Source of the DNA: a virus
Length of the DNA stretch: 38,647 nucleotides
Strand: one strand, 5' to 3'
Virus record (IMG/VR): IMGVR_UViG_3300006904_000012
Location: 1 to 38,647 of that record
Part shown: piece by piece, positions 11,979 through 37,428 of the stretch
Layout of the letters: every line of letters begins with the position of its first letter
Position numbering within the stretch: position 1 is the first letter of the stretch
The notes under the pieces: model-generated
The model's database searches: none
What the model was told of the DNA's origin: nothing
Seen by the model: the letters and a program-made list of their open reading frames with translations, nothing else
Position numbers and translations under genes: made by a program

Positions 11979-12490
11979 GGACCCACGCCATCATAGGGGC
12001 GCGCTGGGAGCCCATGCCGACCGAGCTGCTGCCGGCGCAGGCGAGGCTCGAGCGCGTGCTCGCGTCGTGGGACCGCACCCCGTACCGGAGCGGCGGCTCG
12101 ATGCGCGGCGTCGAGGGCGACTGCATCGGGGCGGTGTTCGGCGTGGTCGACGAGATGGACGGGCGATCGCGCCGGCAGGACTCCTCGATGCCGCACGACA
12201 CGGCCTTCCACAACCCGCAGGCGGCCTACCGCGCGGTCGCCGCGCTCCGCCGGCTGTACCGGCCCGCCGAGCGCCTGCGGCACTGGCTCTACCAGCCCGG
12301 CGACGTGCTCGTCGTCGGCACGACCGACGGCGGCCCGGGCCACGTGATGATCGTCGGCGGGCGGAAGAACACGCTCTGGCACGCGACGTCGGCCAGCGGC
12401 TTCGCGCAGTGCGGCTGGGCGCTCGGCCTCGGCTTCGAGCGGCTCTTCGCCGCGTACCGCTTCGGCGACAGGGAGAGGTGGCTCCGATGA
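11975..12490 (+). CDS. NlpC/P60 family tail peptidase
   Basis: The GTG at 11975 overlaps the previous stop (GTGA); an ATG at 12014 with GGGAG three bases before it is an alternative start. The sequence shows WDRTPYRSGG followed by GDCIGAVFG, the catalytic-cysteine region, and GPGHVMIVGG, the histidine region, as in NlpC/P60 cysteine peptidases. In the gene-transfer-agent/lambda gpK position such enzymes cut peptidoglycan crosslinks locally so the tail can reach the inner membrane. Its place between the DUF2163-like gene and the gpJ-like gene supports this. No separate endolysin was found in the window. Confidence 0.85.
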   Translation: MRTHAIIGARWEPMPTELLPAQARLERVLASWDRTPYRSGGSMRGVEGDCIGAVFGVVDEMDGRSRRQDSSMPHDTAFHNPQAAYRAVAALRRLYRPAERLRHWLYQPGDVLVVGTTDGGPGHVMIVGGRKNTLWHATSASGFAQCGWALGLGFERLFAAYRFGDRERWLR

Positions 12491-15231
12491 ACGCGAGACT
12501 CCTGCGGCGACCCGACCACTCGAGCCCGCGGTGCGGCGAGGCGAGCCTCATCTACTTCGCGATCTCGGTCAGCCTCGCGATCATCGCGGGCATGCTGCTG
12601 AAGCCGAAGAGCAAGTCCCCGGTCCAGGACGACAAGCCGACGACGCTCACGCTGCGCGGCTCGTACATCAACTGGATCTGCGGCATCCGCCAGATCGGCC
12701 CGGTCTTCGCTTGGGCCGGCGACCGCGAGAGCCGCTCCGAGCGCTCGGGCGGCGGCAAGGGCACGCCCGCGCCGCGCGTGGACGTCTGGTACGAGGCCGG
12801 CTGGCACCAGCTCGCCGTCGGACCGTGCGACGCCCTGCACTCTATCACGGACAACGGCAAGATCATCTTCCGCGGCCCGATCACGCGCACGTCGCACCCG
12901 AGCGGCTCGACGATCCAGCTCAGCACGAACGAGTCCTTCACCATCTACTGGGGAGAGCCGAACCAGCCGATCAACGCCTTCCTCGGCGACGCGGCGCGCG
13001 TCGGCATCAGCTCCCGCTGGCCCTACTGCTGCTACGTGGTCTGGAACAAGAAGCGCCTCGGCTCGAGCCCGAACTGGTCGCTCCTCAACTACGAGCTGGA
13101 GCGCCGGCCGACGACGAGCGTGCTCTCCGGCTCGCAATCCTGGTACGAGCCGACGGCGACGCTCGACGGCCCCACGCTCACGATCGTGGCGGCGGTCGCC
13201 AACGCCGCGCCGGACGTCGGCTACCTGGAGGTCGCCGGGGACCACTCGCGCGACATCGAGCCCGGCCTGCCGATCCGCCTGACCGGCAACTCGAAGCCGG
13301 ACGGCAACTACGAGGTGCGCCGGGCGACGACGGTCATCGTCGTCGTCGGGACGAACCCCTACAACGGCCTGCCTATCTACGCCACGCACACGCGGATCTT
13401 CCTGGAGGGCGGCACTGCCGGGGCCAACAGCTCCGGGACGGTGCAGCTCTTCAGCTTCGCGACCGACGACGGGGTGAACGTAGCCTGGGCGGCGGCCGAG
13501 CTGCTCTTCGCGAGCTACCCGCTCGGCCTCCAGCGCGACCCGAGCGGCCCTGAGTCCTGGAGCATCCCGTCGCTCGAGGCGCTAGGCGCCGAGGCGGAGT
13601 CCTTCGACTGGCGCGCGTCGCTCGTCGCGGTCGACGGGGAGCAGGCCGACGCCATCCTCGGCAACCTGCTCCAGGACCACGGCACGCTCCTGCCGATCGA
13701 CACGACCAGCGGGGACCTCACGTTCAAGCGCTGCCGCGAGCCCTCGGGCACGCTGCCGAACATCTCGGTCGACATGGAGGCCGACTCCCTGCCCGAGGTC
13801 GAGTCGCTCCACGCCGAGAAGCGCGTAGACAAGATGGTCTTCAGCTTCACCGACCGAGACCACGGCTACAGCGACATGACGATCTCGGTCGACGACGACG
13901 GCCAGATGGCCTACCTCGACTTCGCGAAGCCGAAGAAGGTCCCGATCTCCAGCACGACCGAGTTCTCCACGGCCGCGCAGCTCTCGGAGCTGCGGTCGCA
14001 GGAGGAGCTGGCCGGCGCCGGCACGGTGACGCTGAAGTCGAACCGCGAGGCGCGCAACCTGCTCCCCGGCGACCCGTTCGTCTCCGCCAGCTTCGACGAG
14101 GTGCTCCGCCTGCTCGAGTCCACCGTCGACCCGCTCTCGGAGACCGTCACGCTGAAGGTGGTCCCAGACTTCTACGGCGCGCGCAAGAGCGACTTCGTGA
14201 ACGAGCGCGGCGGGGGAGACCCGAACTTCCTCGACCCCGAGCAGGACCTCCAGTTCGCGGCGCTCGAGCTGCCCGAGCAGCTCTCCTCGACCGAGGAGAT
14301 GTTCCTGCTCGTGCCGCGGATCCGCGCGCACTCGCAGATCACCGAGGCCGCGATCCACCTCTCGCGCGACAACACGAGCTACACCCAGGTCGGCGTCGAG
14401 ACCGGCGTGGCGACCGGCGGCACCACCAACGTCGCGATGTCGGCCGGCGGCCCGAACGAGCTGGCCCAGGGTCCGACGTTCGTGCTGCGGGGGCCGGACG
14501 TCTCCACCGCGCTCGACCTCTCGGCCGACCCGACGAACTTCGGGCTCGGCCGCCAGGTCGTCGCCATCGTCTCGACGGCCGGCATCGAGATCGGCTACGT
14601 GCAGAAGCTCACGGCGATGGGCGGAGGGATCTACCGGCTCGACGGCCTCCTGCGCGCGCGCTACGACACGCGGAAACTCGCGCACCCGAGCGGCGCGGCC
14701 GTCTACGTCTTCCAGGACTCGACGTTCTCGACCTTCGACGACATCCTGCTCGTCCCCGGCGAGGACCTCTACACGAAGAGCCAGCCGAGCACGTCCGGCG
14801 GCCAGGTCGCGATCGGCGCGATCCCGCCGTACGCCGACGTGCTCCGCGGCAAGGGCCTCGTCCCGATCGACCCGGAGAACCCCTACGTCTCCGCGCCGCA
14901 CAAGGGCTCTCCGTCGTACCAGTCGGGCGACAACGTGACGGTCCGCTGGAACTGGTCCACGGCGTCGTCCTCGAACACCGGCGCCGGCTTCCAGAACGCC
15001 GGCACGCCGGTCGGCGTCGCCGTGCTCAAGGGCGCGTTCATCGTCGAGCTGCTGACCCCGGCCCTCGTCGTCGTGCAGACCGACACGGTGAACGTCGCGC
15101 AGATCACCTACCCCTCGACGGTCCTCGCGGCCGCGCCGATCAGCAACGGCAACTTCAAGGTCCGCATCACCCACACGAACAACGGGTACGTCTCGAACTC
15201 GGTCGTACTCTCCGTCACGCACGTCACCTAG
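12487..15231 (+). CDS. gpJ-like tail tip hub / receptor-binding protein
   Basis: The ATG at 12487 overlaps the peptidase stop (ATGA). The 914-residue product has an early hydrophobic stretch (about residues 20-38, YFAISVSLAIIAGMLL), then beta-rich domains: GSYINWICG and GPVFAWAGD near the start, a central part with LPIDTTSGDLTFKRCREP, and fibronectin-like strands at the C-terminus. Size and position as the last large gene of the tail-tip set match the central hub that carries host-recognition domains. The N-terminal membrane-like segment is unusual and could mark the pilot part that inserts on ejection. Individual domains were not matched to families. Confidence 0.75.
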   Translation: MNARLLRRPDHSSPRCGEASLIYFAISVSLAIIAGMLLKPKSKSPVQDDKPTTLTLRGSYINWICGIRQIGPVFAWAGDRESRSERSGGGKGTPAPRVDVWYEAGWHQLAVGPCDALHSITDNGKIIFRGPITRTSHPSGSTIQLSTNESFTIYWGEPNQPINAFLGDAARVGISSRWPYCCYVVWNKKRLGSSPNWSLLNYELERRPTTSVLSGSQSWYEPTATLDGPTLTIVAAVANAAPDVGYLEVAGDHSRDIEPGLPIRLTGNSKPDGNYEVRRATTVIVVVGTNPYNGLPIYATHTRIFLEGGTAGANSSGTVQLFSFATDDGVNVAWAAAELLFASYPLGLQRDPSGPESWSIPSLEALGAEAESFDWRASLVAVDGEQADAILGNLLQDHGTLLPIDTTSGDLTFKRCREPSGTLPNISVDMEADSLPEVESLHAEKRVDKMVFSFTDRDHGYSDMTISVDDDGQMAYLDFAKPKKVPISSTTEFSTAAQLSELRSQEELAGAGTVTLKSNREARNLLPGDPFVSASFDEVLRLLESTVDPLSETVTLKVVPDFYGARKSDFVNERGGGDPNFLDPEQDLQFAALELPEQLSSTEEMFLLVPRIRAHSQITEAAIHLSRDNTSYTQVGVETGVATGGTTNVAMSAGGPNELAQGPTFVLRGPDVSTALDLSADPTNFGLGRQVVAIVSTAGIEIGYVQKLTAMGGGIYRLDGLLRARYDTRKLAHPSGAAVYVFQDSTFSTFDDILLVPGEDLYTKSQPSTSGGQVAIGAIPPYADVLRGKGLVPIDPENPYVSAPHKGSPSYQSGDNVTVRWNWSTASSSNTGAGFQNAGTPVGVAVLKGAFIVELLTPALVVVQTDTVNVAQITYPSTVLAAAPISNGNFKVRITHTNNGYVSNSVVLSVTHVT

Positions 15232-15846: not shown

Positions 15847-16356
15847 TCACGGTCCCCCGCGGAAGAAGAGCCGGATCATCGGCTCCCCCCTGGTGTACTT
15901 GTACAGGATGCCGAACTGGCTGGCCCAGACCGGGCCGTGCGGGCTCTCCTGCGCGTCCCACGCTAGCACGTGCGCGTACTCGTGGATCAGGATGTCGCGC
16001 TGGATCCAGGGGTCCACGTCGTCGCGGACCTCGGTGAGGATCGAGGACGTCGGCGACCAGGGGTCCTCGCCGGCGGCCGCGGCCTTCGGGTCCGGGTGCG
16101 TCAGCCCGAGGTACGGGTCCTTCAGCGGGCTCGAGCGGAGGACCCAGGGGTGAGCGGTGGGGAAGTGAGCGCGCAGGGCGCGCTCCAGCTCGAACAGCGG
16201 GCTCCCCACCTCGACCGGCCTGCCGGGCAGGTCCGGACGCGGGTCGATAGCCTTCTCGGCCGGGGTGGGCCTGGGCGTCGGGCGGTAGCGGTCCATCGTG
16301 TGGCAGCCCGCCGCGACCAGCGCCAGCGCCGCCAGGGACATCATCAGCTTCTTCAT
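15847..16356 (-). CDS. lipoprotein with SprT-like zinc metalloprotease motifs
   Basis: The start at 16356 is chosen for its strong ribosome binding site (AAGGAG) and because the signal peptide begins there; the longer frame to 16539 is out-of-frame reading. Residues 1-18 are a lipoprotein signal (MKK, hydrophobic core, LVAAGC with Cys18). HEYAH at 125-129 followed by HGPVW at 140-144 matches the HExxH...HGxxW layout of SprT-like zinc proteases, with the third ligand as histidine. The mature protein should be membrane-anchored outside the cytoplasm. Such an enzyme could cleave envelope proteins during lysis or entry; no substrate can be inferred. Last gene of the leftward module. Confidence 0.75.
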   Translation of the reverse strand: MKKLMMSLAALALVAAGCHTMDRYRPTPRPTPAEKAIDPRPDLPGRPVEVGSPLFELERALRAHFPTAHPWVLRSSPLKDPYLGLTHPDPKAAAAGEDPWSPTSSILTEVRDDVDPWIQRDILIHEYAHVLAWDAQESPHGPVWASQFGILYKYTRGEPMIRLFFRGGP

Positions 16357-16544
16357 CTGACCTTCTCCTTCTCGGCCCGCTGCGCGCGGGCCTTCGCGCC
16401 CGAGCCCCGCGCACCGACCTGGTGCATGAGGGTCTCGAGACAGTAGACGAGCTTGCACTTCAGGCAGTAGGCTCGCTGGAACTTCTTCGTGTCGACGGCG
16501 TACGTGTGCGTCACGCCGATCGTCCCTCCGCACGGGCACTTCAC
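16353..16544 (-). CDS. small zinc-ribbon protein
   Basis: GTG start overlaps the TerL stop (GTGA), with AGGAGG upstream. The 63-residue product has CPCGG near the start and YCLKCKLVYC in the middle, a probable zinc ribbon with a CxC and CxxC layout, then a basic tail (GAKARAQRAEKEK). The fold could bind nucleic acid or a protein partner. It overlaps both neighbours by 4 bp, so the three genes are probably made together; a role in DNA packaging is possible but unproven. Its family was not identified. Confidence 0.7.
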   Translation of the reverse strand: MKCPCGGTIGVTHTYAVDTKKFQRAYCLKCKLVYCLETLMHQVGARGSGAKARAQRAEKEKVR

Positions 16545-18019
16545 CGGCTCCTCCTCGCCCGGGACCCGAGCTTGTACGCCTTCTGCTGCATCTGGACGAC
16601 CTTACCGTCGCGGCCCATCCGGCTATAGAAAGCCATCACCACCGCGTCGGCGCGGTCGGGCGACTCGTCGATCTCGGTGCGCTCGCGCCACTCGTCCTTC
16701 GACTCCACCTTCAGGCGCCCCTTGCGGTCGGTGTAGTATTGCCGCGTCGAGAGCTGCTTCAGCAGGCGCGGGTCGTTAGGGAGGTGGACGATGCGCTCCT
16801 GCACGAGGTTGCGCAGGTTCCACCAGGCCTCGCTGTAGGCGTCGGCGAACATCGAGCTGTCGCTCGCGACGGCCTGCGTGTGGAACTCGTGCACCTGCTT
16901 GCCGCCCTCCCAGAACGAGTGCACGATGCCCTGGCCCATGCCGCCCGCGTCGGGGACGTACCAGCAGTCGTCGTTCTTCCAGCCGGCGTCGTACTGCTGG
17001 CGGAAGGCGTAGTCGGTGACCTCGCGCGGGTCGCGCTTCACGAAGACCTTGAAGTCCACGACGGCCAGCCCGCTGCGCCGGACCACGACCGACTCGTCGC
17101 CGCCGTAGCGCGCGTAGTCGATGCCGATGGCCTTGTTCACCGGGAGGATGTCCGTGATCGTCGCGCACCCGTACATGGTCGTCTTGGTACAGGCGATCAG
17201 GTCCTCGAGCGCCATGATCGAGTTCGGGTCGCTGCGCGGGAACTCCCCGAGGACCCGTACGCGGTACACGTCGCTGTCGCGGCCGTACTCCAGCTCGAGC
17301 GCGCGGTTGCGGCTCGGCGAGACGATGTGCGGGTAGTCGCGCGCCGTGTCCTCGGCGTTCCACGCGAGCCGGTGCCACAGGTCGGCCTGCGTGGTGAAGC
17401 ACTCGTGGAACTTGCAGTCGGTCGTGTTGGGGTTCCCGATCGCCAGGAAGAGCGCGTCCGGGTTCGACAGCGTGCCCTGGATCGTCTCCATGATCGACCG
17501 GGCCACGCCAGAGGCCTCGTCGGCGATGAACGTCAGGCGCTTCTCGTGGATCCCCTGGAGGTTCTGCGGCCGCGAGGCCGTCGCGGAGCGGATCTGCCAC
17601 GTCCGCGAGCCGTTGACGACGACCTTCGTGCCGTAGCACTCGACGAACCCGCGCAGGAAGGGGTGCGCGCCCTTCAGGATGCGGTCGATCTCGTCGATGA
17701 ACTGCTTGCACTGCCGCATGTTCGGCGCGGTGACCACGCAGAGGGCGTCCGGGTAGCGGAGGCAGCGCCAGAGGGCGACTCCGCCGCTCATGGACGTCTT
17801 CCCCGGCCCCTGGCCGCTCCGGACGGCCACCCGCTTGAGCCTCTTCTCGACCGGAAGCTCGCTCTCGAGCTGGATCACGTCTAGGAGCTGCCTCTGCTGC
17901 CACGTCGGGCCGCTCCCGGGCGCCTCCTTGCCGAAGTTGAGGCCCGTGTCGAAGAAGTCGTGGATGCTGGAGCGCCAGCGCTCGTACAGGGGCGTGAATT
18001 TCCTCGCGAACGTGGACAT
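16541..18019 (-). CDS. terL: terminase large subunit (TerL)
   Basis: The 492-residue packaging motor shows all main TerL features. The Walker A loop is SGQGPGKTS (68-76), Walker B is LTFIADEA (162-169), and the coupling segment is FLAIGNPN (191-198). The nuclease domain begins with an RNase H-like strand, GIDYARYGGDES, with Asp301 as a likely metal ligand, and SPDRADAVVMAF near residue 465 supplies later acidic ligands. TerL cuts concatemers and pumps DNA into the procapsid through the portal. No strong ribosome binding site precedes the ATG, only 15 nt after the previous stop, so coupling is likely. It lies on the strand opposite the tail genes, which is unusual. Confidence 0.95.
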   Translation of the reverse strand: MSTFARKFTPLYERWRSSIHDFFDTGLNFGKEAPGSGPTWQQRQLLDVIQLESELPVEKRLKRVAVRSGQGPGKTSMSGGVALWRCLRYPDALCVVTAPNMRQCKQFIDEIDRILKGAHPFLRGFVECYGTKVVVNGSRTWQIRSATASRPQNLQGIHEKRLTFIADEASGVARSIMETIQGTLSNPDALFLAIGNPNTTDCKFHECFTTQADLWHRLAWNAEDTARDYPHIVSPSRNRALELEYGRDSDVYRVRVLGEFPRSDPNSIMALEDLIACTKTTMYGCATITDILPVNKAIGIDYARYGGDESVVVRRSGLAVVDFKVFVKRDPREVTDYAFRQQYDAGWKNDDCWYVPDAGGMGQGIVHSFWEGGKQVHEFHTQAVASDSSMFADAYSEAWWNLRNLVQERIVHLPNDPRLLKQLSTRQYYTDRKGRLKVESKDEWRERTEIDESPDRADAVVMAFYSRMGRDGKVVQMQQKAYKLGSRARRSR

Positions 18020-18034
18020 TTCAGCCGAAAATCG

Positions 18035-18577
18035 TCACCAGACGACGATCCTGGTGTGCTTGGGGTGCGTCGAGTGCTGCTCGAGGGCCGTCACGGCCTC
18101 CCGGAACGCCGGATCGCTGCTCCTGTCGCCCACGACGACGCTCAGGAGCGCTCCCGGCGCCCTCTGGGCGACGATCGGGGCGCGATTCTCGAGCAGGTGG
18201 ATCTCCCAGGAGCGCTGCCCGCCGACCCGGAGCACGTTCCAGTAGGGGAACCCGGTCACGGAGGCGAGCTGCGGGTTGATCTTGGTCGTCACCTGCTGTA
18301 GGAAGGCCATGATCTTGGCCCCCTCGTCCTGCGTCGAGGCCAGGACGAGCCCGCTGGACGACTGGTTCGCGAGGACGCGCCACAGCGCGTACATCGCGGC
18401 GGCCCTGGACATCTCGTTCCGGGCGTCCCCGACGACCTGGTAGAAGCTCGGGTTGGTGGCGAGGACCCCGAGGACCTCGCGCTGCCGGGGCGTGGGCCTC
18501 AGCTCGAGCGAGTCGCAGAGGCTCAGGGGGTCCCGCAAGACCTCAAGCCTTCCTCGGAGGGCGGCGAGACTGAGCAC
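18035..18577 (-). CDS. degenerate TerL-ATPase-like protein
   Basis: A GTG start follows AAGGAG by 4 nt and overlaps the previous gene by 35 bp. The 180 residues run parallel to the N-terminal half of the neighbouring TerL: TPRQREVLGVL against TWQQRQLLDVI, then VVGDARNEMS (48-57) where TerL has its Walker A loop, YALWRVL against VALWRCL, GLVLASTQ against LCVVTAPN, SWEIHLL against TWQIRSA, and LLSVVVGD (144-151) against LTFIADEA. The Walker A Lys/Thr and the Walker B Glu are absent, so ATP hydrolysis is unlikely. It may be a dead paralogue serving as regulator or small-terminase substitute. The alignment was made by eye. Confidence 0.6.
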   Translation of the reverse strand: MLSLAALRGRLEVLRDPLSLCDSLELRPTPRQREVLGVLATNPSFYQVVGDARNEMSRAAAMYALWRVLANQSSSGLVLASTQDEGAKIMAFLQQVTTKINPQLASVTGFPYWNVLRVGGQRSWEIHLLENRAPIVAQRAPGALLSVVVGDRSSDPAFREAVTALEQHSTHPKHTRIVVW

Positions 18578-18836
18578 GGGGCTCCTTGTACTGCTCCAGG
18601 TCGTTCCTGAGCTGCTCGATCAGCACGTCGCGCTGCCCCAGCTCGTGGTACATGCGGTCGATCTTGGTCTCCAGCTCGCGGATCCGCTGGAGCAGCGTGT
18701 CGCGGTACTCCCTCTTCGCGAGCCGGCGGCTCTCGAGCCACACGGCGAGGACCTTCGAGGCCCCTGCGCCGAGCAGGAGGGTCGCGCCGGTCTTGACCCA
18801 GGGCGGGAGGTCGGTCAGGTCGTCGAAGGAGATCAT
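18543..18836 (-). CDS. one-helix membrane protein with coiled coil (holin- or spanin-like)
   Basis: This 97-residue protein has one transmembrane segment at about residues 13-32 (VKTGATLLLGAGASKVLAVW), then a charged coiled coil at about 35-85 (RIRELETKIDRMYHELGQRD) and a basic tail. This layout occurs in several phage-encoded holin-like or accessory lysis proteins. The ATG at 18836 has no Shine-Dalgarno; a small GC-rich hairpin lies just upstream. Its 3' end overlaps the degenerate ATPase gene by 35 bp. Lysis is a plausible role, but a packaging-associated membrane role cannot be excluded. Confidence 0.65.
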   Translation of the reverse strand: MISFDDLTDLPPWVKTGATLLLGAGASKVLAVWLESRRLAKREYRDTLLQRIRELETKIDRMYHELGQRDVLIEQLRNDLEQYKEPRAQSRRPPRKA

Positions 18837-19002: not shown

Positions 19003-19541
19003 CTGCCGACCTCCTTGGACTCCGGCGGCAGCTCTGGCAGCCTCCGCTCGACCCCGCCGAGGAACGCCCTCGCGCCGCCGCGGACGAGCGCCCACGCGCG
19101 CCGGAACACCTCCGGGTAGTGCGCCCACGCGCGGAGCAGCAGCGCGCCGCCCGCGCCGACGAGCACCCACGTCAGGCGGTCTGGGCCTCCGTGGCCGTTC
19201 TTGTCCACGACGGTCGGCGGGGCGGCGAGCGCGGAGAACACGCTCGCCACGAACGTCGCGAGCGCGACGCCGGCCCAGCCGACCGGGTAGAGGACCCAGG
19301 CGAGGAAGCCGACGACGGCGCCTCCCCCGATCTGGATGAGCCTCTCACCGACGAACTTCAGGCCGCGGCCCACCGCCGCGCAGCCCTCCAGGTTCGCCAG
19401 GACGACGCCCCAGAAGAGCAGCGCGCATAGCGCTCTGTCGAGCGCGAAGCCGATCGCGCTCAGCGCGGCGCGCCTCACGGGCCGCCTCCGGGTCGCAGCG
19501 CTCTCACGTCTTCCGCCTGATCTCGCCCATCGCAGCATCAC
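18999..19541 (-). CDS. multi-pass membrane protein
   Basis: The GTG at 19541 overlaps the previous stop and is followed at once by an ATG (19538); GGAGGAG lies 4-9 nt upstream, so either could be used. The 180-residue product has a basic N-terminus, hydrophobic stretches at about 34-55 (ALCALLFWGVVLANLEGCAA), 70-105 (GGAVVGFLAWVLYPVGWAGV and onward) and 122-142 (LTWVLVGAGGALLLRAW), and a basic C-terminus, suggesting three or four membrane spans. In this small module it is the best holin candidate after the coiled-coil protein, but no endolysin is next to it. Unrecognised family. Confidence 0.65.
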   Translation of the reverse strand: MMLRWARSGGRRESAATRRRPVRRAALSAIGFALDRALCALLFWGVVLANLEGCAAVGRGLKFVGERLIQIGGGAVVGFLAWVLYPVGWAGVALATFVASVFSALAAPPTVVDKNGHGGPDRLTWVLVGAGGALLLRAWAHYPEVFRRAWALVRGGARAFLGGVERRLPELPPESKEVGR

Positions 19542-20578
19542 GTCTCCTCCCTGTCGAACTCCGCGAGGGCCGCCGGGTCCTCGTCCCCCGAGTCTACCGC
19601 GGGCTCGGGGGTCACGTCCACCGCGTCCGCGTCGACGATCCTCCTCTGGCTCTCTAGCAGCCGGCGGTCCTGCCGCTCGGCCACCCCCGCGATCACGCCG
19701 GCGAAGAGCCGCCCCAGGTCCTCGGGCTCCGAGCGCGTGAGGCCCTGCACGCGGGCCAGCTCCTTCAGCACGCGCAGCTCCTTGTCGGTGTTCATCTCCT
19801 CCTTGGTGCGGGCCGCGAGGTCCTTCAGCATCAGCACCATCAGGGCGCGGTCCTCCTCAACCGAGGAGGAGCCCCCGCGCATCGCGTCGGCGCGCGCCAG
19901 GCGCACCAGCGCCGCGGCCTCCCGGCGGGCCAGGCCGTAGCGGCCGCGCAGGTGCTCCACCGTCGCGCGCTCGCCGCACTCCAGGATCGCCCGGGCCGCC
20001 TCGTCGACGAGCAGCTCCTCCAGGCCCACCACCATCTTCGGGGTCACGCCCGCGTGGCCGCAGGTCCTCGGGTCGAGCAGGCCGCGCAGCCCGGCCGCCC
20101 CGCCCTCCGAGGCGGCGACGCCCAGCTCCTCGGCGAGCACCGCGGCGACCGGGCACCAGGCCCGGGCGAGGGCCGGGTCGGCCGGCGGCAGCAGCGTCAC
20201 GCCCCCGGCGGCGAGCCGGTGCATGTCGGTCGCCTCGCCGAGCCGGACGAGCTGCTGCTGGCTCGGGGAGAGCCGCGGCGCGGTCGGGAAGGTCCACGGG
20301 CTCTCGGCGTAGTCCTCGGCGTCCGCGGCGCGCTCGAGCGGCTCGTCCTCGGCGCACAGGCCGAGCACCAGCGCGATCCCGCGAGCGAGGCGCCAGCAGA
20401 CCAGGACGCGCCAGCGGAGGTCCTCCTGGCGCGGGTACTGGGCCTCGTAGCCGGGCGGCAGGAACGCCTCGGACAGCACCCGGCCCAGCTCGTCGCCGAG
20501 GAGCTGGCGGGCCGCGGGCTCGGACAGGAAGCGGTCCAGCGCCGGGGTCGCGACGTCTACCTGGTGCCTCTGGGCCAC
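19538..20578 (-). CDS. possible terminase small subunit (TerS-like)
   Basis: The first gene of the leftward module encodes 346 residues from GTG 20578. A TTG at 20623 would extend it, but it falls at the predicted transcription start and lacks a ribosome binding site. Residues ~210-245 (TVEHLRGRYGLARREAAALV) look like a helix-turn-helix. A helical part with DLAARTKEEMNTDKELRVLK and LGRLFAGVIAGVAERQ follows, like the oligomerisation region of small terminases, and then an acidic tail. Upstream position in the operon containing TerL fits. It is longer than usual (100-200 residues), and the N-terminal ~200 residues are unassigned. Confidence 0.45.
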   Translation of the reverse strand: MAQRHQVDVATPALDRFLSEPAARQLLGDELGRVLSEAFLPPGYEAQYPRQEDLRWRVLVCWRLARGIALVLGLCAEDEPLERAADAEDYAESPWTFPTAPRLSPSQQQLVRLGEATDMHRLAAGGVTLLPPADPALARAWCPVAAVLAEELGVAASEGGAAGLRGLLDPRTCGHAGVTPKMVVGLEELLVDEAARAILECGERATVEHLRGRYGLARREAAALVRLARADAMRGGSSSVEEDRALMVLMLKDLAARTKEEMNTDKELRVLKELARVQGLTRSEPEDLGRLFAGVIAGVAERQDRRLLESQRRIVDADAVDVTPEPAVDSGDEDPAALAEFDREET

Positions 20579-25521: not shown

Positions 25522-26097
25522 TTGGACTCTCCCGCCTGGTCCGACCTGACCGAGACGAAGTACGCGACGCTGCGCGAGCGGCTGGCGCGGCTCCCCGACC
25601 TGGAGCGCGAGGCCGAGGCGCGGGCGCGGGACGCGGAGGTGGACTCTCTCACGGGACTCTACAACCGGCGCGGACTAGACCGCCGGACGCGGCGCGACGG
25701 CCAGAGCTGGTTCGTCTTCGTCGACCTGGACGGGTTCAAGGCGGCGCAGGACGCGCACCCGCTCGGGCACGCCTACGGGGACGAGGTGCTGCGGGAGTTC
25801 GCGCACTTCCTCTCCGAGCAGACTCGGGGCTCGGACGTGACGCTCGCCCGCGAGGGCGGGGACGAGTTCGTCGTGCGCATCGACAGCCGGGCCGGGGCGC
25901 GCCGCGTGCGCGACCTGGTGCGCCGCTGGCGCTCGCGCGACGGCCGGGTGTCGGCGAGCGCCGGCCTCGGCGCGGACGTGGAGGCCGCGGACGCGGCGAT
26001 GTACCTGGACAAGGAGGAGAAGCGGGCGAGGACGCTGCCGACCTTCTCGGCGGCGTGGCTGCGCCTGCGTGAGATAGCGCAGAGGAGGATCCTGTGA
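25522..26097 (+). CDS. GGDEF-domain protein (diguanylate-cyclase-like)
   Basis: TTG start with GGGAAGGA upstream. After a ~38-residue helix, the GGDEF fold follows in order: DSLTGLYNRRGL (41-52), FVFVDLDGFK (64-73, metal-binding Asp68), LGHAYGDEVLREF (81-93), the signature GGDEF (112-116), and DAAMYLDKEEKR (157-168). An RGSD at 102-105 resembles the inhibitory RxxD site but lies one residue further from GGDEF than in WspR. The usual substrate-binding Asn of FKxxND is Gln76 here. Known members make cyclic di-GMP or related dinucleotides. No sensory domain is attached. It overlaps the next lipoprotein gene. Confidence 0.88.
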   Translation: MDSPAWSDLTETKYATLRERLARLPDLEREAEARARDAEVDSLTGLYNRRGLDRRTRRDGQSWFVFVDLDGFKAAQDAHPLGHAYGDEVLREFAHFLSEQTRGSDVTLAREGGDEFVVRIDSRAGARRVRDLVRRWRSRDGRVSASAGLGADVEAADAAMYLDKEEKRARTLPTFSAAWLRLREIAQRRIL

Positions 26098-30534: not shown

Positions 30535-33198
30535 ATGGAACCTGCACCGGATCCGATCGTCGGAGTGATCTTCGACCGCGAGCGCCACCCCGGCGCCGGC
30601 GTGCTCGCGGACCTGGCCGACCAGAACAGGGCCTCGCGCGTGATGTGCGACGAGCACCTCCCGCTGTCGGAGGCGATGTCGCGCGAGTGGGACCGGGACG
30701 CCCACGTCGTCTCGTACGCGCTGGTCGACGAGGACGGAGACCGCTGCTACGCCCGCGCGAACAAGCGCGCCCCGATCGCGGCGGAGCTGGCGCTGCTCGG
30801 CGGCCGGATCGACGTATCGGTGCTGCTCTTCGACTACGACCTACCCAAGAATCCGGACGGATCAAAGACCGTCTGGACCGAGGAAGGCCTCGGCGAGTTC
30901 GTGCAGGTGCTCGCCGGGGCCGACCTCCCTTCCCCGACCTACTGGTACACCACGCTGCACGGCTGCCGCTTCGTGTACGCGCTCGCGGCGCCTGTGAGCC
31001 ACCTGGAGGCCGAGCCGCTGTGCGCCGAGATGATGGCGCGCTTCGCCGCGCAGGGGGTCCAGCTCGACCCGGCGTGCAAGGACTGGACGCGCCTCTTCCG
31101 CCTGCCCGGAGCGACGCGCGCGGACACCGGCGCGAGCTTCTCGACGGACCCCATGTTCAGGTACCTCGGCGGCGGCCCGGCGCTCGACGCCTCGACGATC
31201 CAGGTGACGGCCGCGGCTCAGGACGAGTTCGCCCAGGTCGTGCCGTACCGGGCCGACATGCCGGACCCGGACGAGTGCCGGGAGCTGGTCCTCAGGCGGT
31301 CGAGCAACGGCCGCGAGGTGCCGACCGACTTCGGGCGCGAGGCACAGAAGTACCTCCAGGGCCGCGAGGCCTACGCCGCGTGCTTCGAGGACGGGAAGGT
31401 CGACGTATCGAGGGGCTGGAACAACGGCGTGACCCGGCTCGTCGGCCAGGTCGTCGGCATGACGGCGCGCATCGAGAGCGCGACGCCAGAGGGCGTGTTC
31501 GCGCTGCTGGTGCCGGCGCTCCAGCAGCTCCAGGCCGACGAGGACTCCGGCGCCCGCGAGACCCAGTGGCTCCCGAAGGCGTGGGACATCGTGTGCCGGA
31601 TGTGGGCGAGCGAGCAGGCCCAGATCCAGGCGGCGAACGAGGAGCGCGAGCGCAGCCTCCAGCGGGCCAAGGGCGTGCGCGAGGAGATCATGGCGATCGT
31701 GAGGAAGGACCAGCCCCTCTCCGTGCCGCAGTCGCCGGCGGACGCGGAGGAGTGGCTGCGCCAGCGGATGGTCGCGAGCGACGGCCGGAACCACTACGTG
31801 ATGCGCCCCGACTCCACGTACAACGTGCGGCCGTGCGGCGACTCCATGCTCGTGCCGATGATCCGCGAGCTGGGCATGGAGGACGTGATCGAGACCTCCG
31901 AGCTGCGCGGCAGGGCGTGGGTTCCGCGGAGCGCGCAGTCGATCCTGAACGACCACGCCACCCCGATCTCCTCGGTGTCCTGCTCGTCGCGCGACTCCTT
32001 CGCGTACATCGACGGCGACCAGGGCGCGCGCGTCCTGCACCTGCCGGTGCACCGGCTGAACCCGCGGCTGCGGAGGGGCGGCGAGTACAGCGCCCAGGTG
32101 CAGGAGTGGCTCGAGGCTATGGCCGGCGAGAAGTCCGACCTCCTCGTCGAGTGGCTCTCGTGGGCGCTCGACGTCACCGCGCCGATCTGCGCGCTCAACC
32201 TCTACGGCGCGAGCGGGGCCGGCAAGGGGATGCTGGCGCAGGGTCTCGCCGAGTGCTTCGAGGGCGAGCGGTCGAACGACGGCCGCGCGCTCGGCAAGTT
32301 CAACGAGGGCCTCCTCCACTCGCCGGTCATCAACTGCGACGAGGGCCTGCCGCAGATCCAGTCCGACGAGTCGCTCCCGATCGACCAGGCCTTCCGCGCG
32401 TTCGTCTCTGGCGGCCGGCTCACGATCCGCTCGATGTACCGCGACCCGTTCAACGCGAGCGTCTACCCGCGGATCCTGTTCACCGGCAACGACCGCGACA
32501 TGCTGCGCTCGATCGTCGGGCACCGCGACCTCACCGACGAGGACGTCCGCGCGATCGAGGTGCGGCTGCTCTCGGTCGAGGTCGGCCACCGCGCCCGCGA
32601 CCTGCTCACCTCGCGCGGCAACTACGCCTACACCTCGGGCTGGGTCGGCGGCCGCGAGCCGAGCAGGTACGTGGTCGCGAACCACGTCGCCTGGCTCTAC
32701 GCGAACCGCACCCCGAGTCGGCGCGGGACGAACCGCCTGCTAGTCGAGGGCGAGGTCCACACCAGCATGGTGCGCTCGATGCGGCTGCGCACGCAGGCCT
32801 CGCAGGCCGTGCTGAAGGCGATCGTGAGGATGGTCGAGTCGCCCGGCGAGCGGCGCGGCGTGCACTGCGAGGGTGGCTACGTCTGGGTCACCGCGTCCGG
32901 CGTGGTCGACTACATCGGCTCGCCCACGTCCATGATCCCCGAGCGCGTGAGCCTCAGCAAGTGCGCTGCGGTGCTGCGCCAGTTCGCCGCGCACGAGTAC
33001 GACGGCGAGACGCAGAAGCGCCGGCCGAAGGGCCAGGAGCGCGGCCGCTGGATCGAGGTGAATCTGGCCGTGGTGTTCGAGGAGGGCCTGCGCTACGGCA
33101 TGGCGTGCGAGCGCATCGAGCGACTCCTCCGCACGCAGCCCGGCGGCGAGGCCCTGGCGACGCAGATCATCTCGCGCAACGGGGAGGAGGACCGGTGA
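30535..33198 (+). CDS. DNA primase/helicase (primase-polymerase-like plus D5-type helicase)
   Basis: This 887-residue protein combines two replication domains. The N-terminal part (about 80-210) has VLLFDYDLPKN, TYWYTTLHGCRFVYALAAP and CKDWTRLFRLPGATR, the strand, His-containing and Arg segments of archaeo-eukaryotic primase-like domains. The C-terminal part has a Walker A loop YGASGAGKG (about 557-565), Walker B VINCDEGLP (about 598-606) and ILFTGND (sensor-like Asn), as in phage/plasmid D5-type helicases. It should unwind DNA and lay primers. It is first in the replication operon, and its stop overlaps the nuclease start (GTGA). Confidence 0.88.
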   Translation: MEPAPDPIVGVIFDRERHPGAGVLADLADQNRASRVMCDEHLPLSEAMSREWDRDAHVVSYALVDEDGDRCYARANKRAPIAAELALLGGRIDVSVLLFDYDLPKNPDGSKTVWTEEGLGEFVQVLAGADLPSPTYWYTTLHGCRFVYALAAPVSHLEAEPLCAEMMARFAAQGVQLDPACKDWTRLFRLPGATRADTGASFSTDPMFRYLGGGPALDASTIQVTAAAQDEFAQVVPYRADMPDPDECRELVLRRSSNGREVPTDFGREAQKYLQGREAYAACFEDGKVDVSRGWNNGVTRLVGQVVGMTARIESATPEGVFALLVPALQQLQADEDSGARETQWLPKAWDIVCRMWASEQAQIQAANEERERSLQRAKGVREEIMAIVRKDQPLSVPQSPADAEEWLRQRMVASDGRNHYVMRPDSTYNVRPCGDSMLVPMIRELGMEDVIETSELRGRAWVPRSAQSILNDHATPISSVSCSSRDSFAYIDGDQGARVLHLPVHRLNPRLRRGGEYSAQVQEWLEAMAGEKSDLLVEWLSWALDVTAPICALNLYGASGAGKGMLAQGLAECFEGERSNDGRALGKFNEGLLHSPVINCDEGLPQIQSDESLPIDQAFRAFVSGGRLTIRSMYRDPFNASVYPRILFTGNDRDMLRSIVGHRDLTDEDVRAIEVRLLSVEVGHRARDLLTSRGNYAYTSGWVGGREPSRYVVANHVAWLYANRTPSRRGTNRLLVEGEVHTSMVRSMRLRTQASQAVLKAIVRMVESPGERRGVHCEGGYVWVTASGVVDYIGSPTSMIPERVSLSKCAAVLRQFAAHEYDGETQKRRPKGQERGRWIEVNLAVVFEEGLRYGMACERIERLLRTQPGGEALATQIISRNGEEDR

Positions 33199-35147
33199 GC
33201 GAGCCGCTCGTCACCTCCGCCTCGCAGGTCGAGGATTTCACGGCGTGTAGGCGCCGCTGGTGGCTCAAGCGCGTCGCGCGGCTGCCCGAGGAGCAGCGCG
33301 GCTACTTCACCTTCGGCACAGTGCTGCACGGCTGCATCGAGCGCTGGAAGGCGGCCGACGCGCAGGGGCGCGTGCCGTCCCCGGTGCCCGAGGTCCTGGC
33401 GGGCCAGGCCGCCGGAGCGGCGGTCGACCCCTTCCCCTCCGGATGGGAGACCGTCGAGGAGCGCGGCGCGGCGGCCAGCGTGACGCCGAACGAGGCGAAG
33501 CTCATCCGCGACCTGCTCGCCGACGCGGTGGAGAAGGGGGTCCTGTCCCGCGACCCGAAGGTGCAGGTCGAGCGCGAGGTCCGCCTGCCGCTGGTCGACG
33601 GCGTGGAGCTGCTCGGCTACGTGGACTGGTTCCGGCCGGCGGAGACGGTCGTCCACCAGCCCGACGGGACGAAGTACATCGTCTCGGCCCCGGAGGTCCA
33701 CGACCACAAGTCCTTCGGGGAGTCCTCGGTGCGCTACCTCAAGCAGCCTGGGCCGCAGAACGAGATCGACCAGTACGAGCAGATCCAGGAGCCCTACTCC
33801 CCGGGCGACGGCACGAGCCCCAACTGCGTGGGGCACAACCAGCAGCTCCTCACCTACGCGGCCGCGACGTCGCGCCTCGACGGGTACGACGGCCCAGTCT
33901 TCGTGCGGCACAACCAGTTCCCTAAGTTCAGGGACCCGAGGGGAGTCCGTAAAGTCTCGGCGCTCGTCTCGTCGAAGAGATTGTCCAAGCACTGGGAGTT
34001 CCTCCAGGAGGTCGGGCGGGGCATGCTGGCCGTCAGGGGGATCAAGCGGTGGGAGGACGCGCCGGGACCCGAGACGACGGACGTGTGCTCGCAGTACGGG
34101 GGCTGCCCTTTCCAGGGGATATGTTCTCGCCGCGAGACGGTGGCGGGGTATACTAAGCGAATCGAGAGACAGACCAAGGACCGCGCGGAGCGTCAGCGCC
34201 CGAACCTCGGGCTCGAGCCGAAGCGGAAGAAGGACAAGAAAGACACAGGAGGCAACGTGGACCTTTTCGAGCGTGCGAAGAAGCAGAAGGCGGCGCGAGC
34301 CGCGCAGACAGCGGCCCAGGCGCCGGCTCCGGCCGCGCCGAAGGCCCAGGCGGCCCCGGCCGCCCCGCAGCCGGCGGCCCCGGCGATCAACTCCGGCCCG
34401 ACCGCGCCGCAGGCGTCGGTCACCGGCGGCGCCCCGTGGGCGCGGCCGAGCTGCCCGGTGTGCAAGGGCATCGGCATGAACAAGGAGGGCCGCCCGTGCA
34501 TGATCTGCGACAAGACGGCCGCGAAGGACGGCCGCCCGAGCAGCGAGGCGTACCACGTCGAGATCACCGACGAGGGCGCGGTCGCGGTGGCCCGCGAGGA
34601 CAGGGCCGAGGCGCTGGCGGCGATGGGCGCGGCCCTGGAGTGGGCGCAGTCGGGCGTCAAGGTCTCGGCCCCCGCCGCGGCCCCGGCGCCAGCGCCGGCG
34701 GCCCCTCCGCCCGCTCCGAAGGCCGCCCCGAAGGCGGCGGCCCCGGCGCCCGCTCCTGCGGCCCCGGCGCCGAGCCCCGAGCCGCCCGCGGTCGAGGCGC
34801 CCGTCGTGGACCGGAGGCCGAAGGACGGCCGGGGGCGCCCGCGGGTGGGGCTCTCGCTCTACCTCGGCGTGGTGCAGCTCAAGGGGGCGGACCGGCCCGT
34901 CGTCATGGCGGCGGACCTGATGAACAAGGTCGGGGCCGAGATGGCCACCGACATGATGGCGGAGTCCTACTGGGCGCTGGACCCGCACAAGCGGAAGGAC
35001 AGGCTGAAGGAGCGGGGCGAGAAGGTCGCCGAGGCGCTCGGGCGGACCATCGTGGTCTTCCCCGGCGGCACGAACGACTTCGACCTCGTGGCGCTCTTCA
35101 ACGCACTCGAGCCGTTCGCCGAGACGGTCCTCGAGCGCCTGGGATGA
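33195..35147 (+). CDS. Cas4/RecB-like PD-(D/E)XK nuclease fused to a C-terminal zinc-ribbon domain
   Basis: GTG overlapping the helicase stop. Residues 1-320 carry the nuclease: Cys18 in CRRRWW, GTVLHGCIERW (motif with His), GYVDWF (141-146), HDHKSFG (metal-binding Asp and Lys, about 169-175), QLLTYAAA, then C-x5-C-x5-C at 298, 304 and 310. Cys18 with these three matches the four-cysteine Fe-S layout of Cas4 and AddB nucleases. After a Lys-rich and a long Ala/Pro linker come a zinc ribbon (CPVCKGIGMNKEGRPCMIC, about 420-438) and an unassigned final domain. An internal start at 34257 may yield the second half separately. Probably a recombination or end-processing nuclease. Confidence 0.85.
   Translation: MSEPLVTSASQVEDFTACRRRWWLKRVARLPEEQRGYFTFGTVLHGCIERWKAADAQGRVPSPVPEVLAGQAAGAAVDPFPSGWETVEERGAAASVTPNEAKLIRDLLADAVEKGVLSRDPKVQVEREVRLPLVDGVELLGYVDWFRPAETVVHQPDGTKYIVSAPEVHDHKSFGESSVRYLKQPGPQNEIDQYEQIQEPYSPGDGTSPNCVGHNQQLLTYAAATSRLDGYDGPVFVRHNQFPKFRDPRGVRKVSALVSSKRLSKHWEFLQEVGRGMLAVRGIKRWEDAPGPETTDVCSQYGGCPFQGICSRRETVAGYTKRIERQTKDRAERQRPNLGLEPKRKKDKKDTGGNVDLFERAKKQKAARAAQTAAQAPAPAAPKAQAAPAAPQPAAPAINSGPTAPQASVTGGAPWARPSCPVCKGIGMNKEGRPCMICDKTAAKDGRPSSEAYHVEITDEGAVAVAREDRAEALAAMGAALEWAQSGVKVSAPAAAPAPAPAAPPPAPKAAPKAAAPAPAPAAPAPSPEPPAVEAPVVDRRPKDGRGRPRVGLSLYLGVVQLKGADRPVVMAADLMNKVGAEMATDMMAESYWALDPHKRKDRLKERGEKVAEALGRTIVVFPGGTNDFDLVALFNALEPFAETVLERLG
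34247..34259 (+). promoter_or_regulatory. internal ribosome binding site and GTG start
   Basis: A perfect AGGAGG (34247-34252) lies four bases before an in-frame GTG (34257) inside the nuclease gene. Translation from here would give a 296-residue protein (VDLFERAKKQKAARAAQ onward) with the linker, zinc ribbon and final domain but no nuclease. The site falls exactly at the boundary between the nuclease and the Ala/Pro-rich part. Confidence 0.6.
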
Positions 35148-35173: not shown

Positions 35174-35371
35174 ATGACGGCGATGATCGAGACGACGCTG
35201 CGCCAGGAGCGCAGCATCGCGAGGCGGTACAGGGCAGGCGAGACGCTCCGGGAGATCCGGAAGAGCCCGCCGAAGGGGCTGCCGCGGCGGATGTCCCTCA
35301 CGACCCTGACGAGGATCCTGCGCGCCGCGGGGATCCGAAAGCTGCGGCCGCGGGGGCGAGTCCCGCAGTGA
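35174..35371 (+). CDS. small helix-turn-helix DNA-binding protein
   Basis: The ATG at 35174 is chosen over ATG 35144 because AGGAGG lies six bases before it. The 65 residues contain ERSIARRYRAGETLREIRK, then SLTTLTRILRAAGI and KLRPRGR: the helix-turn-helix and following basic arm of resolvase/Hin-type domains ('aGiRxxRpRGR'). There is no catalytic domain. It could be a regulator of phage promoters or an accessory protein for recombination. GTGA overlap couples it to the SNF2-like helicase. Confidence 0.7.
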   Translation: MTAMIETTLRQERSIARRYRAGETLREIRKSPPKGLPRRMSLTTLTRILRAAGIRKLRPRGRVPQ

Positions 35372-37428
35372 GCGCGACGAGCGACCCGTTCGCTCGCGCC
35401 AGGCAGAACCGGCGGCGAGACACGGCGGACTCCCTGGAGATCCACCGCATAGTCTCGCTGCCGGTCGTCCTGCTCCCGACGCCGGAGGAGGTCGAGGAGT
35501 TCTGCCGGCAGGAGGTCGACGCCAAGTTCTTCGACGAGGGCTTCCGCCTGTTCAACACGCAGGTCGGCGGCGTGCTCGCGTGGGACATCTACGGCGGCGG
35601 GTTCTTCCCGATCGGCGTCGGCTGGGGCAAGACGCTCATCACGCTGATGATCGCGAACCGGGCCTTCGAGCGCCGCGAGTCGGAGCGCTCGATCCTGTTC
35701 GTGCCCTCGCAAGTCTACTCGCAGCTCACGCAGCGAGACATCCCGTGGGCGCGGCGCCGCGTCGGCCTGCGCGTGCCGTTCGTGCTCATGGGCGGCCGGG
35801 ACGCCTCGTCCCGCGCCAGCGCGGCCGCCTCGAGGAAGCGCGGCTGCTACGTGATACCGTACTCGCAGCTCTCGACGAAGGACGCCGAGGCGGTGCTGAC
35901 CGGGATCGAGCCCGACCTCCTCATCTTCGACGAGGCGCACGCGGTCAAGAACCAGAAGGCCGCGCGCACGACGCGGATCCTGCGCTACCTGAGGGCCAGG
36001 CAGCCGCGCGTGGTGGCGCTCTCCGGCACGATCACGTCGAAGTCGATCGGCGACTACCACCACCTCATCACCTACGCGCTGCGGGAGCGCAGCCCGCTGC
36101 CGCTGGACCAGGCCCTCGCGAGCAACTGGTCGTACGTGCTCGACGCGACGGCGGACCCCAGTGTCGCGCAGACCGGGCCGATCGCCCCGCTGATCGACTG
36201 GAGCCGCCGGTGCTTCCCGGGCGAGGACCTGCCTAAGGGCGTGCCCGGGTTCCGCAAGGCGTACCGCCTGCGGCTCAACAGCTCGCCAGGGGTGGTGGCG
36301 ACCGGGGACAACGAGATCGGGGTGTCGCTCACGATCCAGAACCTCCCCGTGCCGCTGCCGGCGGTGCAGGACACCGACGAGTACAGGCGGCTGAAGCGCC
36401 TGATGGACGACGTGGAGGAGCTGTGGCGCACGCCCTCCGGCGACGAGATCGAGTGGGGCTTCCAGAAGTGGCGCTACCTCTACGAGCTGACGAGCGGCTT
36501 TTACTACCACCTCCGCTGGCCGACGGAGGACGAGCTGGTCCTGCGCCGCGGCCTCACGCGCGAGGGCGCGAGGGAGCACCTCGCGCTCGCGAGGCTGCAC
36601 CACGAGGCGCACCAGGAGTACAGCAAGAAGCTGCGCCGCTGGATCGAGTACAAGGGCAGGCCGCGCCTCGACACGCCGCTGCTCATCGGCGCGAACATGG
36701 CGCAGCACGGCGACCGGGACGTCGGCGCGGAGCTGTACGGCGCGTGGCGCGAGGCGAAGGACCTCGAGTTCGAGGGGATGCCGGAGCGCCTCTCCGAGCC
36801 GGTGCGCGTCTGCGACTACAAGGTCCGCCACGCGATCGAGTGGGCCAGAGCACTCCAGGACCGGAAGGAGCCGGAGGGCGGCCTGATCTGGTTCCACCAC
36901 GACGAGGTGGGGCGGTGGCTCTGCGACGCGCTCGAGGCCGCGGGCGTCCGCGCCACGTGGGCGCCGTCGGAGTCGGTGCGGAAGGGCTCGAACGAGCTGG
37001 TCGAGCACAAGCCGGGCGCGCGGCGCCTACTCGTGATCTCGATGGGCGGCCATGGCACGGGCAAGAACCTCCAGCACGAATTCTACAACCAGCTCTTCAT
37101 CGACTTCCCGCGCAAGGCCGACCTAATCGAGCAGGTGCTCGGGCGCACGCACCGCAACGGGCAGCCGGCCGACGAGCTGGTCGCGCACACGATGAACACG
37201 CTGACGTTCGACCACCTGAACATGGCGGCCTGCATCGTCGACGCGCTGTACATCCACCAGACCACGGGCGCGCGGCAGAAGCTCGTGATCTGCTCGCACG
37301 ACCCGCTGCCGAAGGTGTATCCGATCGACTTCCTGCGCGAGCGGGGGTTCGTGGACGTGAGCCAGCTCGACGCGCAGGCCCGCGCGGCGCTGGAGGAGAA
37401 GTTCGGGCCGATGGAGAGGGTGCGATGA
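35368..37428 (+). CDS. SNF2-type DNA translocase/helicase
   Basis: GTG overlapping the previous stop. The 686-residue protein shows superfamily 2 motifs in order: GVGWGKTL (motif I, about 85-92), LLIFDEAHAVKN (motif II, about 184-195), VALSGTI (motif III, about 212), and late IEQVLGRTHRNGQ (motif VI, about 587-599), whose RxxQ/RxHRxGQ pattern is typical of SNF2-like enzymes. Phage members help replication restart, recombination or removal of proteins from DNA. Its neighbours (primase/helicase, nuclease, possible ssDNA-binding protein) support replication or recombination. Confidence 0.9.
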   Translation: MSATSDPFARARQNRRRDTADSLEIHRIVSLPVVLLPTPEEVEEFCRQEVDAKFFDEGFRLFNTQVGGVLAWDIYGGGFFPIGVGWGKTLITLMIANRAFERRESERSILFVPSQVYSQLTQRDIPWARRRVGLRVPFVLMGGRDASSRASAAASRKRGCYVIPYSQLSTKDAEAVLTGIEPDLLIFDEAHAVKNQKAARTTRILRYLRARQPRVVALSGTITSKSIGDYHHLITYALRERSPLPLDQALASNWSYVLDATADPSVAQTGPIAPLIDWSRRCFPGEDLPKGVPGFRKAYRLRLNSSPGVVATGDNEIGVSLTIQNLPVPLPAVQDTDEYRRLKRLMDDVEELWRTPSGDEIEWGFQKWRYLYELTSGFYYHLRWPTEDELVLRRGLTREGAREHLALARLHHEAHQEYSKKLRRWIEYKGRPRLDTPLLIGANMAQHGDRDVGAELYGAWREAKDLEFEGMPERLSEPVRVCDYKVRHAIEWARALQDRKEPEGGLIWFHHDEVGRWLCDALEAAGVRATWAPSESVRKGSNELVEHKPGARRLLVISMGGHGTGKNLQHEFYNQLFIDFPRKADLIEQVLGRTHRNGQPADELVAHTMNTLTFDHLNMAACIVDALYIHQTTGARQKLVICSHDPLPKVYPIDFLRERGFVDVSQLDAQARAALEEKFGPMERVR

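Follow-up and report, generated by a model that had tools for sequence, protein, structure and literature searches.

What is the protein encoded immediately upstream of the large terminase gene in this phage, and what might it contribute to DNA packaging? The window analysed here is an IMG/VR virus record of 38,647 bases. It encodes a complete large terminase (TerL) and, directly 5′ of it, a protein that we call gp180 (Table 1). The initial annotation proposed that gp180 follows the N-terminal half of TerL in the order of its motifs, that it lacks catalytic residues and that it is a dead ATPase paralogue, which could regulate or scaffold the motor, replace a small terminase (TerS) or be a relic. 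We examined these proposals using 25 related contigs, which also come from IMG/VR.

Table 1. Coordinates of gp180, TerL and associated features in the window.
Feature	Position	Strand	Description
gp180	18035-18577	-	180 aa, GTG start; pseudo-ATPase, a shortened paralogue of the ATPase core of TerL without its catalytic residues
TerL	16541-18019	-	492 aa, complete large terminase with ATPase and RNase H-type nuclease; PHROG_2, E 9.6e-39
Shine-Dalgarno sequence of gp180 (AAGGAG)	18582-18587	-	4 nt before GTG; duplex energy -7.7 kcal/mol
gp180-TerL junction	18020-18037	-	gp180 TGA at 18035-18037, 15-nt gap, TerL ATG at 18019
Walker A-equivalent position of gp180	18407-18427	-	DARNEMS, residues 51-57; from alignment columns
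Walker B-equivalent position of gp180	18128-18145	-	LSVVVG, residues 145-150; from alignment
Intact Walker A of TerL	17795-17815	-	GQGPGKT, residues 69-75
Intact Walker B of TerL	17516-17530	-	FIADE, residues 164-168
Small conserved protein overlapping the start of gp180	18543-18836	-	coiled coil; hydrophobic stretch at the N terminus
Conserved helical protein with acidic tail	19538-20578	-	346 aa; candidate small terminase

Compared as a single pair, the gp180 and TerL of the window give a BLASTP E value of only 0.002. Within-genome comparisons in relatives reach 7e-13 (contig L024) and 1e-11 (contig L023). A profile-profile comparison (hhalign) of 19 gp180s with 18 TerLs gave a score of 57.6 (probability 94%, E 1e-7), against a maximum of 23.0 over 200 column shuffles and 18.0 with a reversed version. 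The resemblance thus exceeds shuffled-sequence scores, a test named beforehand, and gp180 does follow the order of the TerL N-terminal motifs. An HMM built from five gp180s without any TerL retrieved other gp180s and then TerLs (E values down to 4e-8); the sole further significant ORF was the end of gp180 in L025, which a frameshift has displaced. When 5,115 ORFs from 55 distant contigs were searched with a gp180-only HMM, all 55 TerLs were matched, along with just two other ORFs, both weakly (E 0.91).

None of the PHROG, Pfam or NCBIfam families is specific to gp180; its sole NCBIfam match is a TerL model (E 0.024), and the best match among PDB sequences is the TerL of P74-26 (E 0.04). The NAT10/TmcA helicase domain (Pfam accession PF05127) weakly matches one gp180 as well as TerL. 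We conclude that gp180 is a separate, genuine homologue of the TerL N-terminal ATPase core. Long tblastn matches in L022, L023, L024 and L026 might have indicated an intron or a split TerL gene; they represent TerL aligning also onto gp180.

The AlphaFold2 model of gp180, based on a 19-sequence alignment, has a pLDDT of 90.5 and a pTM of 0.87. The top Foldseek matches of this model are TerLs, which contribute 15 of 17 hits with E ≤0.001; the second match is an Avs3-terminase structure (8dgc). In VIA-align the model superposes on T4 gp17 with a Z score of 15.7 (rmsd 2.9 over 173 residues), followed by the TerLs of HK97 (15.1), P74-26 (14.9) and Sf6 (14.8). Ranks 1-13 are occupied by TerLs only (Z 14-16), and NAT10 and DEAD-box domains score 12-14. 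The match extends to the last residue of gp180 and is equivalent to residues 99-286 of T4 gp17 and 4-178 of P74-26. gp180 consists of the ASCE core alone: the chain finishes with the strand that follows Walker B, the stop codon coming next, and both the lid subdomain and the C-terminal RNase H-type nuclease are absent. Superposition of the predicted structure, on which different folds would have counted against the paralogue proposal, thus gives gp180 a TerL-type ASCE ATPase fold from end to end.

The catalytic residues of this fold are missing. TerL itself is intact, with GQGPGKT, FIADEA and the nuclease acids D301, D357, D455 and D458 invariant in 18 aligned TerLs. In the gp180 of the window, GQGPGKT is replaced by D51ARNEMS57, with the Lys changed to Met56, the Thr to Ser57 and the P-loop glycines gone. 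None of 18 aligned gp180s has the Walker A Lys (Thr in 10, Leu in 3, Met in 2, Ala in 2 and Val in 1) or the third P-loop Gly. At Walker B, V149-G150 stands in place of DE, with Asp changed to Val149 and Glu to Gly150. The initial annotation was thus right about the Walker A Lys and Thr and about the Walker B Glu, which is absent from all 18 gp180s (Gly in 17); the Walker B loss is wider than it described, as the Asp is also absent from all 18 (Leu in 16). From these residue losses we infer that gp180 does not hydrolyse ATP and that its ATP binding is lost or altered.

The gp180s also have conserved features of their own. Of the residues at the core of the fold, the Q-motif Gln is retained in 18/18 and Trp84 in 17/18; Ala169 is retained in 15/18. 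The former Walker B stretch has become a conserved L-G-A-R-S-S-E-P motif, whose Leu-Gly is found in most members, and 34 positions are conserved across gp180s yet differ from the commonest TerL residue, indicating that the family is under constraints of its own. The conserved TerL arginines preceding Walker B are mostly lost (R150 is kept in 6/18 gp180s and R161 in none), and 12/18 have an Arg immediately following the former Walker B. Any action of this Arg in trans is speculation.

IMG/VR scans with gp180 and TerL retrieved 25 contigs whose TerL shares approximately 61-100% identity with the TerL of the window or of its relatives. The gene pair, sought in related phages as the initial annotation suggested, is universal here: a gp180 homologue lies directly 5′ of TerL in 25/25 contigs with a closely related TerL. 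Two of these contigs, L014 and L022, are cut at the contig end, and the gp180 of L025 carries one late frameshift. In 3300050513_000228 both proteins are 100% identical to those of the window; elsewhere gp180 is 28-67% identical to the window member where TerL is 62-82% identical. gp180 was not found beside the TerL of L034 (approximately 40% identical) or of 54 contigs with TerLs at approximately 30-33%, and 47 of these 55 gp180-less contigs include more than 800 nt of sequence upstream of TerL. An IMG/VR scan with a profile of the close gp180 subset brought only contigs already known. All gp180 family members are from environmental metagenome contigs. Among GenBank phages, the gp180s of the window and L024 had no match and that of L031 had a sole match, to a jumbo-phage TerL (E 0.02); scanning of bacterial genomes found no TerL of the present type.

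A 45-row tree places the gp180s in one clade (100/100), on a long stem, and groups them with the present TerL lineage and L034, apart from seven other TerLs (98/91). On this tree the duplication may predate or postdate the L034 split. Pairwise divergences of gp180 and TerL are correlated (r 0.89, 0/2000 permutations). gp180 evolves faster, with a mean identity of 0.42 versus 0.80 for the TerL N-domain. Its dN/dS is 0.19-0.48, compared with 0.07-0.34 for TerL in the same pairs (one near-identical pair being uninformative), and even diverged gp180s share an end point (a Trp directly before the stop) and a signature. gp180 is kept by purifying selection. The retained fold and uniform catalytic loss, together with this selection, are what is expected of a pseudo-ATPase. 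Fold, profile, a single clade and the absence of catalytic residues from all relatives strongly support the identification of gp180 as a dead ATPase paralogue of TerL.

Several other genes of the window and its relatives are recorded here as observations in their own right. A 191-aa ORF (25522-26097, + strand) in this phage record contains an intact GGDEF motif (Pfam accession PF00990, E 4e-17) and resembles a diguanylate cyclase. A large PD-(D/E)XK nuclease-like protein (30645-35147, + strand; Pfam accession PF12705, E 2e-10) adjoins a large helicase-like protein (35368-37428, + strand; phrog_62, E 3e-23). A tail protein (12067-15231, + strand) has an Rcc01698-like C-terminal domain, of the gene transfer agent tail type, slightly below the Pfam domain cut-off. 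Downstream of TerL, a putative lipoprotein (15847-16539, - strand) shows a weak match to SprT-like zinc proteases (E 0.002, below the Pfam cut-off), and ORFs resembling it were seen by eye in L004 and L011. SPFH/band-7-like proteins, likewise recognised by eye, are encoded upstream of the packaging genes in L007 (1549-2115), L011 (157-708) and L012 (890-1477).

The gp180 and TerL genes are tightly spaced. The distance from gp180 stop to TerL start is 0-15 nt in 16 of 19 loci, mostly 3-4 nt; the exceptions are an overlap in L014 and gaps of 58 nt in L007 and 180 nt in L004. Pairing with the anti-Shine-Dalgarno sequence is good at 13/16 gp180 starts and at 0/19 TerL starts (random sites, 24%). 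A terL gene without a Shine-Dalgarno sequence is expected if its translation is coupled to that of the preceding gene. The close junction and the absence of a clear TerL Shine-Dalgarno sequence thus suggest that translation of TerL is probably coupled to that of gp180. A clear Shine-Dalgarno sequence is also missing before terL in 5/7 phages without gp180, so its weakness is not special to the gp180-TerL pair. In the window the two genes share one frame with a single stop between them, an arrangement that could be read as a readthrough fusion. It recurs in 13/19 loci and the other six are out of frame, arguing against a conserved fusion. TAG recoding was also considered; loci with a TAG stop include out-of-frame pairs, which recoding would not join.

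We favour, with middling confidence, the explanation that gp180 is a non-catalytic partner of TerL derived from a single duplication of the terL ATPase core. The core would have been duplicated once in an ancestor of the present phage lineage, and the duplicate would then have lost ATP hydrolysis while being retained as a partner. Re-initiation after gp180 would yield TerL, such that both proteins are made together. gp180 may bind TerL via the surfaces that mediate contacts between TerL ATPase domains. TerL rings rely on inter-subunit contacts, for example through trans-arginine fingers (PMC5727402), and a dead gp180 core could meet or cap such contacts. With neither ATP turnover, lid nor nuclease, gp180 would serve as a static subunit, or as a cap, and would determine the assembly of the TerL ring on the portal or the timing of TerL firing or cutting. 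ATPase-inactive subunits are tolerated in the T4 gp17 ring, where packaging becomes slower and more paused (PMC8589836).

Genomic linkage, probable translational coupling and co-inheritance make regulation or scaffolding of the motor the best reading of the roles first suggested for gp180. The computational observations beneath it are TerL homology, the predicted fold, catalytic loss, a single clade, co-inheritance and purifying selection. Two considerations weigh against a partner role: co-inheritance is expected of any adjacent genes, and the faster divergence of gp180 relative to TerL is not what a ring subunit under tight constraint would show. A more specific and rather doubtful version holds that the motor is a hetero-oligomer, in which dead gp180 subunits are built into the TerL ring, or sit on it, at set positions and break its symmetry or seed its assembly.

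TerS genes usually lie directly 5′ of terL, and known small terminases are helical proteins with a DNA-binding HTH and an oligomerisation core. gp180 might thus be a functional small terminase, a TerL descendant that took over both the TerS slot and its role in DNA recruitment and TerL stimulation, a reading we consider unlikely. gp180 occupies this position in the 25 contigs, the annotated TerS lies there in C72C1, phiCD27 and phiEf11, and no TerS has been recognised near TerL in the present lineage; the alpha/beta ATPase core predicted for gp180 differs, however, from the helical DNA-binding ring of known small terminases. Moreover, the helical, acidic-tailed protein encoded approximately 1 kb upstream (19538-20578) could be the TerS, judging by its position. 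It is conserved near TerL across the lineage and has a relative, in part, in L034, which lacks gp180. This candidate has no TerS match in PHROGs, in PDB sequences, among three annotated TerS proteins or by fold (its model has a pLDDT of 73 and reaches at most Z 7.0 in VIA-align, where a helical stretch of 45 residues is matched). Sixteen other loci likewise encode, upstream of gp180, a homologue of the small protein whose gene overlaps the gp180 start in the window.

Other explanations separate gp180 from TerL binding or from function altogether. gp180 could act in packaging or DNA metabolism without contacting TerL, for example by serving as a scaffold that binds DNA or the portal, and its match to DEAD-box and NAT10 domains is a reminder that this fold binds nucleic acid elsewhere; we think this quite improbable, given that TerL is its nearest relative by both sequence profile and structure and that its linkage to terL is strict. 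TerL is a known immune target, which raises the very unlikely prospect of a decoy: an inactive TerL look-alike that occupies host sensors of the Avs1-3 type and shields the motor. The Avs3-terminase match and the rapid divergence of gp180, as expected of an arms-race protein, are consistent with a decoy, while strict linkage to and co-inheritance with TerL in every relative and the dominance of purifying selection are not, and an ASCE core alone may not resemble the surface bound by a sensor. Similarly improbable is a mainly translated leader, a protein of little function that delivers ribosomes to the TerL start. The junction and the lack of a TerL Shine-Dalgarno sequence would suit such a leader, but a leader would need neither a protein of 170-190 residues that retains its fold, nor residues conserved where the active site used to be, nor a dN/dS well below 1. 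Finally, we give almost no credence to the proposal that a terL duplication left gp180 behind as a decaying relic. The ATPase motifs and the lid and nuclease parts are indeed all gone and L025 has its late frameshift, but the frame is unbroken in the other 24 contigs (two cut at the contig end), and purifying selection and the family's own signature and common end are maintained.

gp180 as a non-catalytic TerL partner can be set beside several known systems. The TerL N-terminal ATPase domain (T4 gp17, P74-26, HK97, Sf6 and D6E) shares with it the fold, the Q-motif Gln and the profile; gp180 differs in lacking the Walker A Lys/Thr, the Walker B Asp/Glu, the lid and the nuclease, and in being encoded beside a complete TerL. 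TerS genes resemble gp180 in position and probable translational coupling and differ in predicted fold and ancestry. The NAT10/TmcA helicase and DEAD-box RecA1 domains have a related ASCE fold, whereas gp180 sequence profiles single out TerL among phage ORFs. The T4 motor doped with ATPase-defective gp17 is likewise a terminase ring with ATPase-dead members (PMC8589836), although these are full-length laboratory mutants and gp180 is a natural, separate and shortened gene whose product may be part of a ring. The phi29 packaging ATPase retains a vestigial nuclease domain (PMC7672431), which parallels gp180 in having lost catalysis and kept the domain; the phi29 nuclease half lies within one chain, whereas the dead ATPase half in our phages is a separate protein. 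In agreement with the initial annotation, the literature, family libraries and GenBank phages that we searched yielded no dead TerL paralogue as a packaging partner.

The identification of gp180 would allow a family of so far unknown phage proteins to be annotated. Current descriptions portray terminase motors as homomeric rings, and the coordination of their subunits is debated on the basis of laboratory mixtures that combine live subunits with dead ones (PMC8589836). If gp180 is a TerL partner, it would be a natural counterpart of this mixing experiment and a third type of component beside TerL and TerS. If its subunits also hold fixed places in the ring, a pseudo-ATPase would be an obligatory subunit of the terminase motor of these phages, an arrangement for which we found no earlier description.
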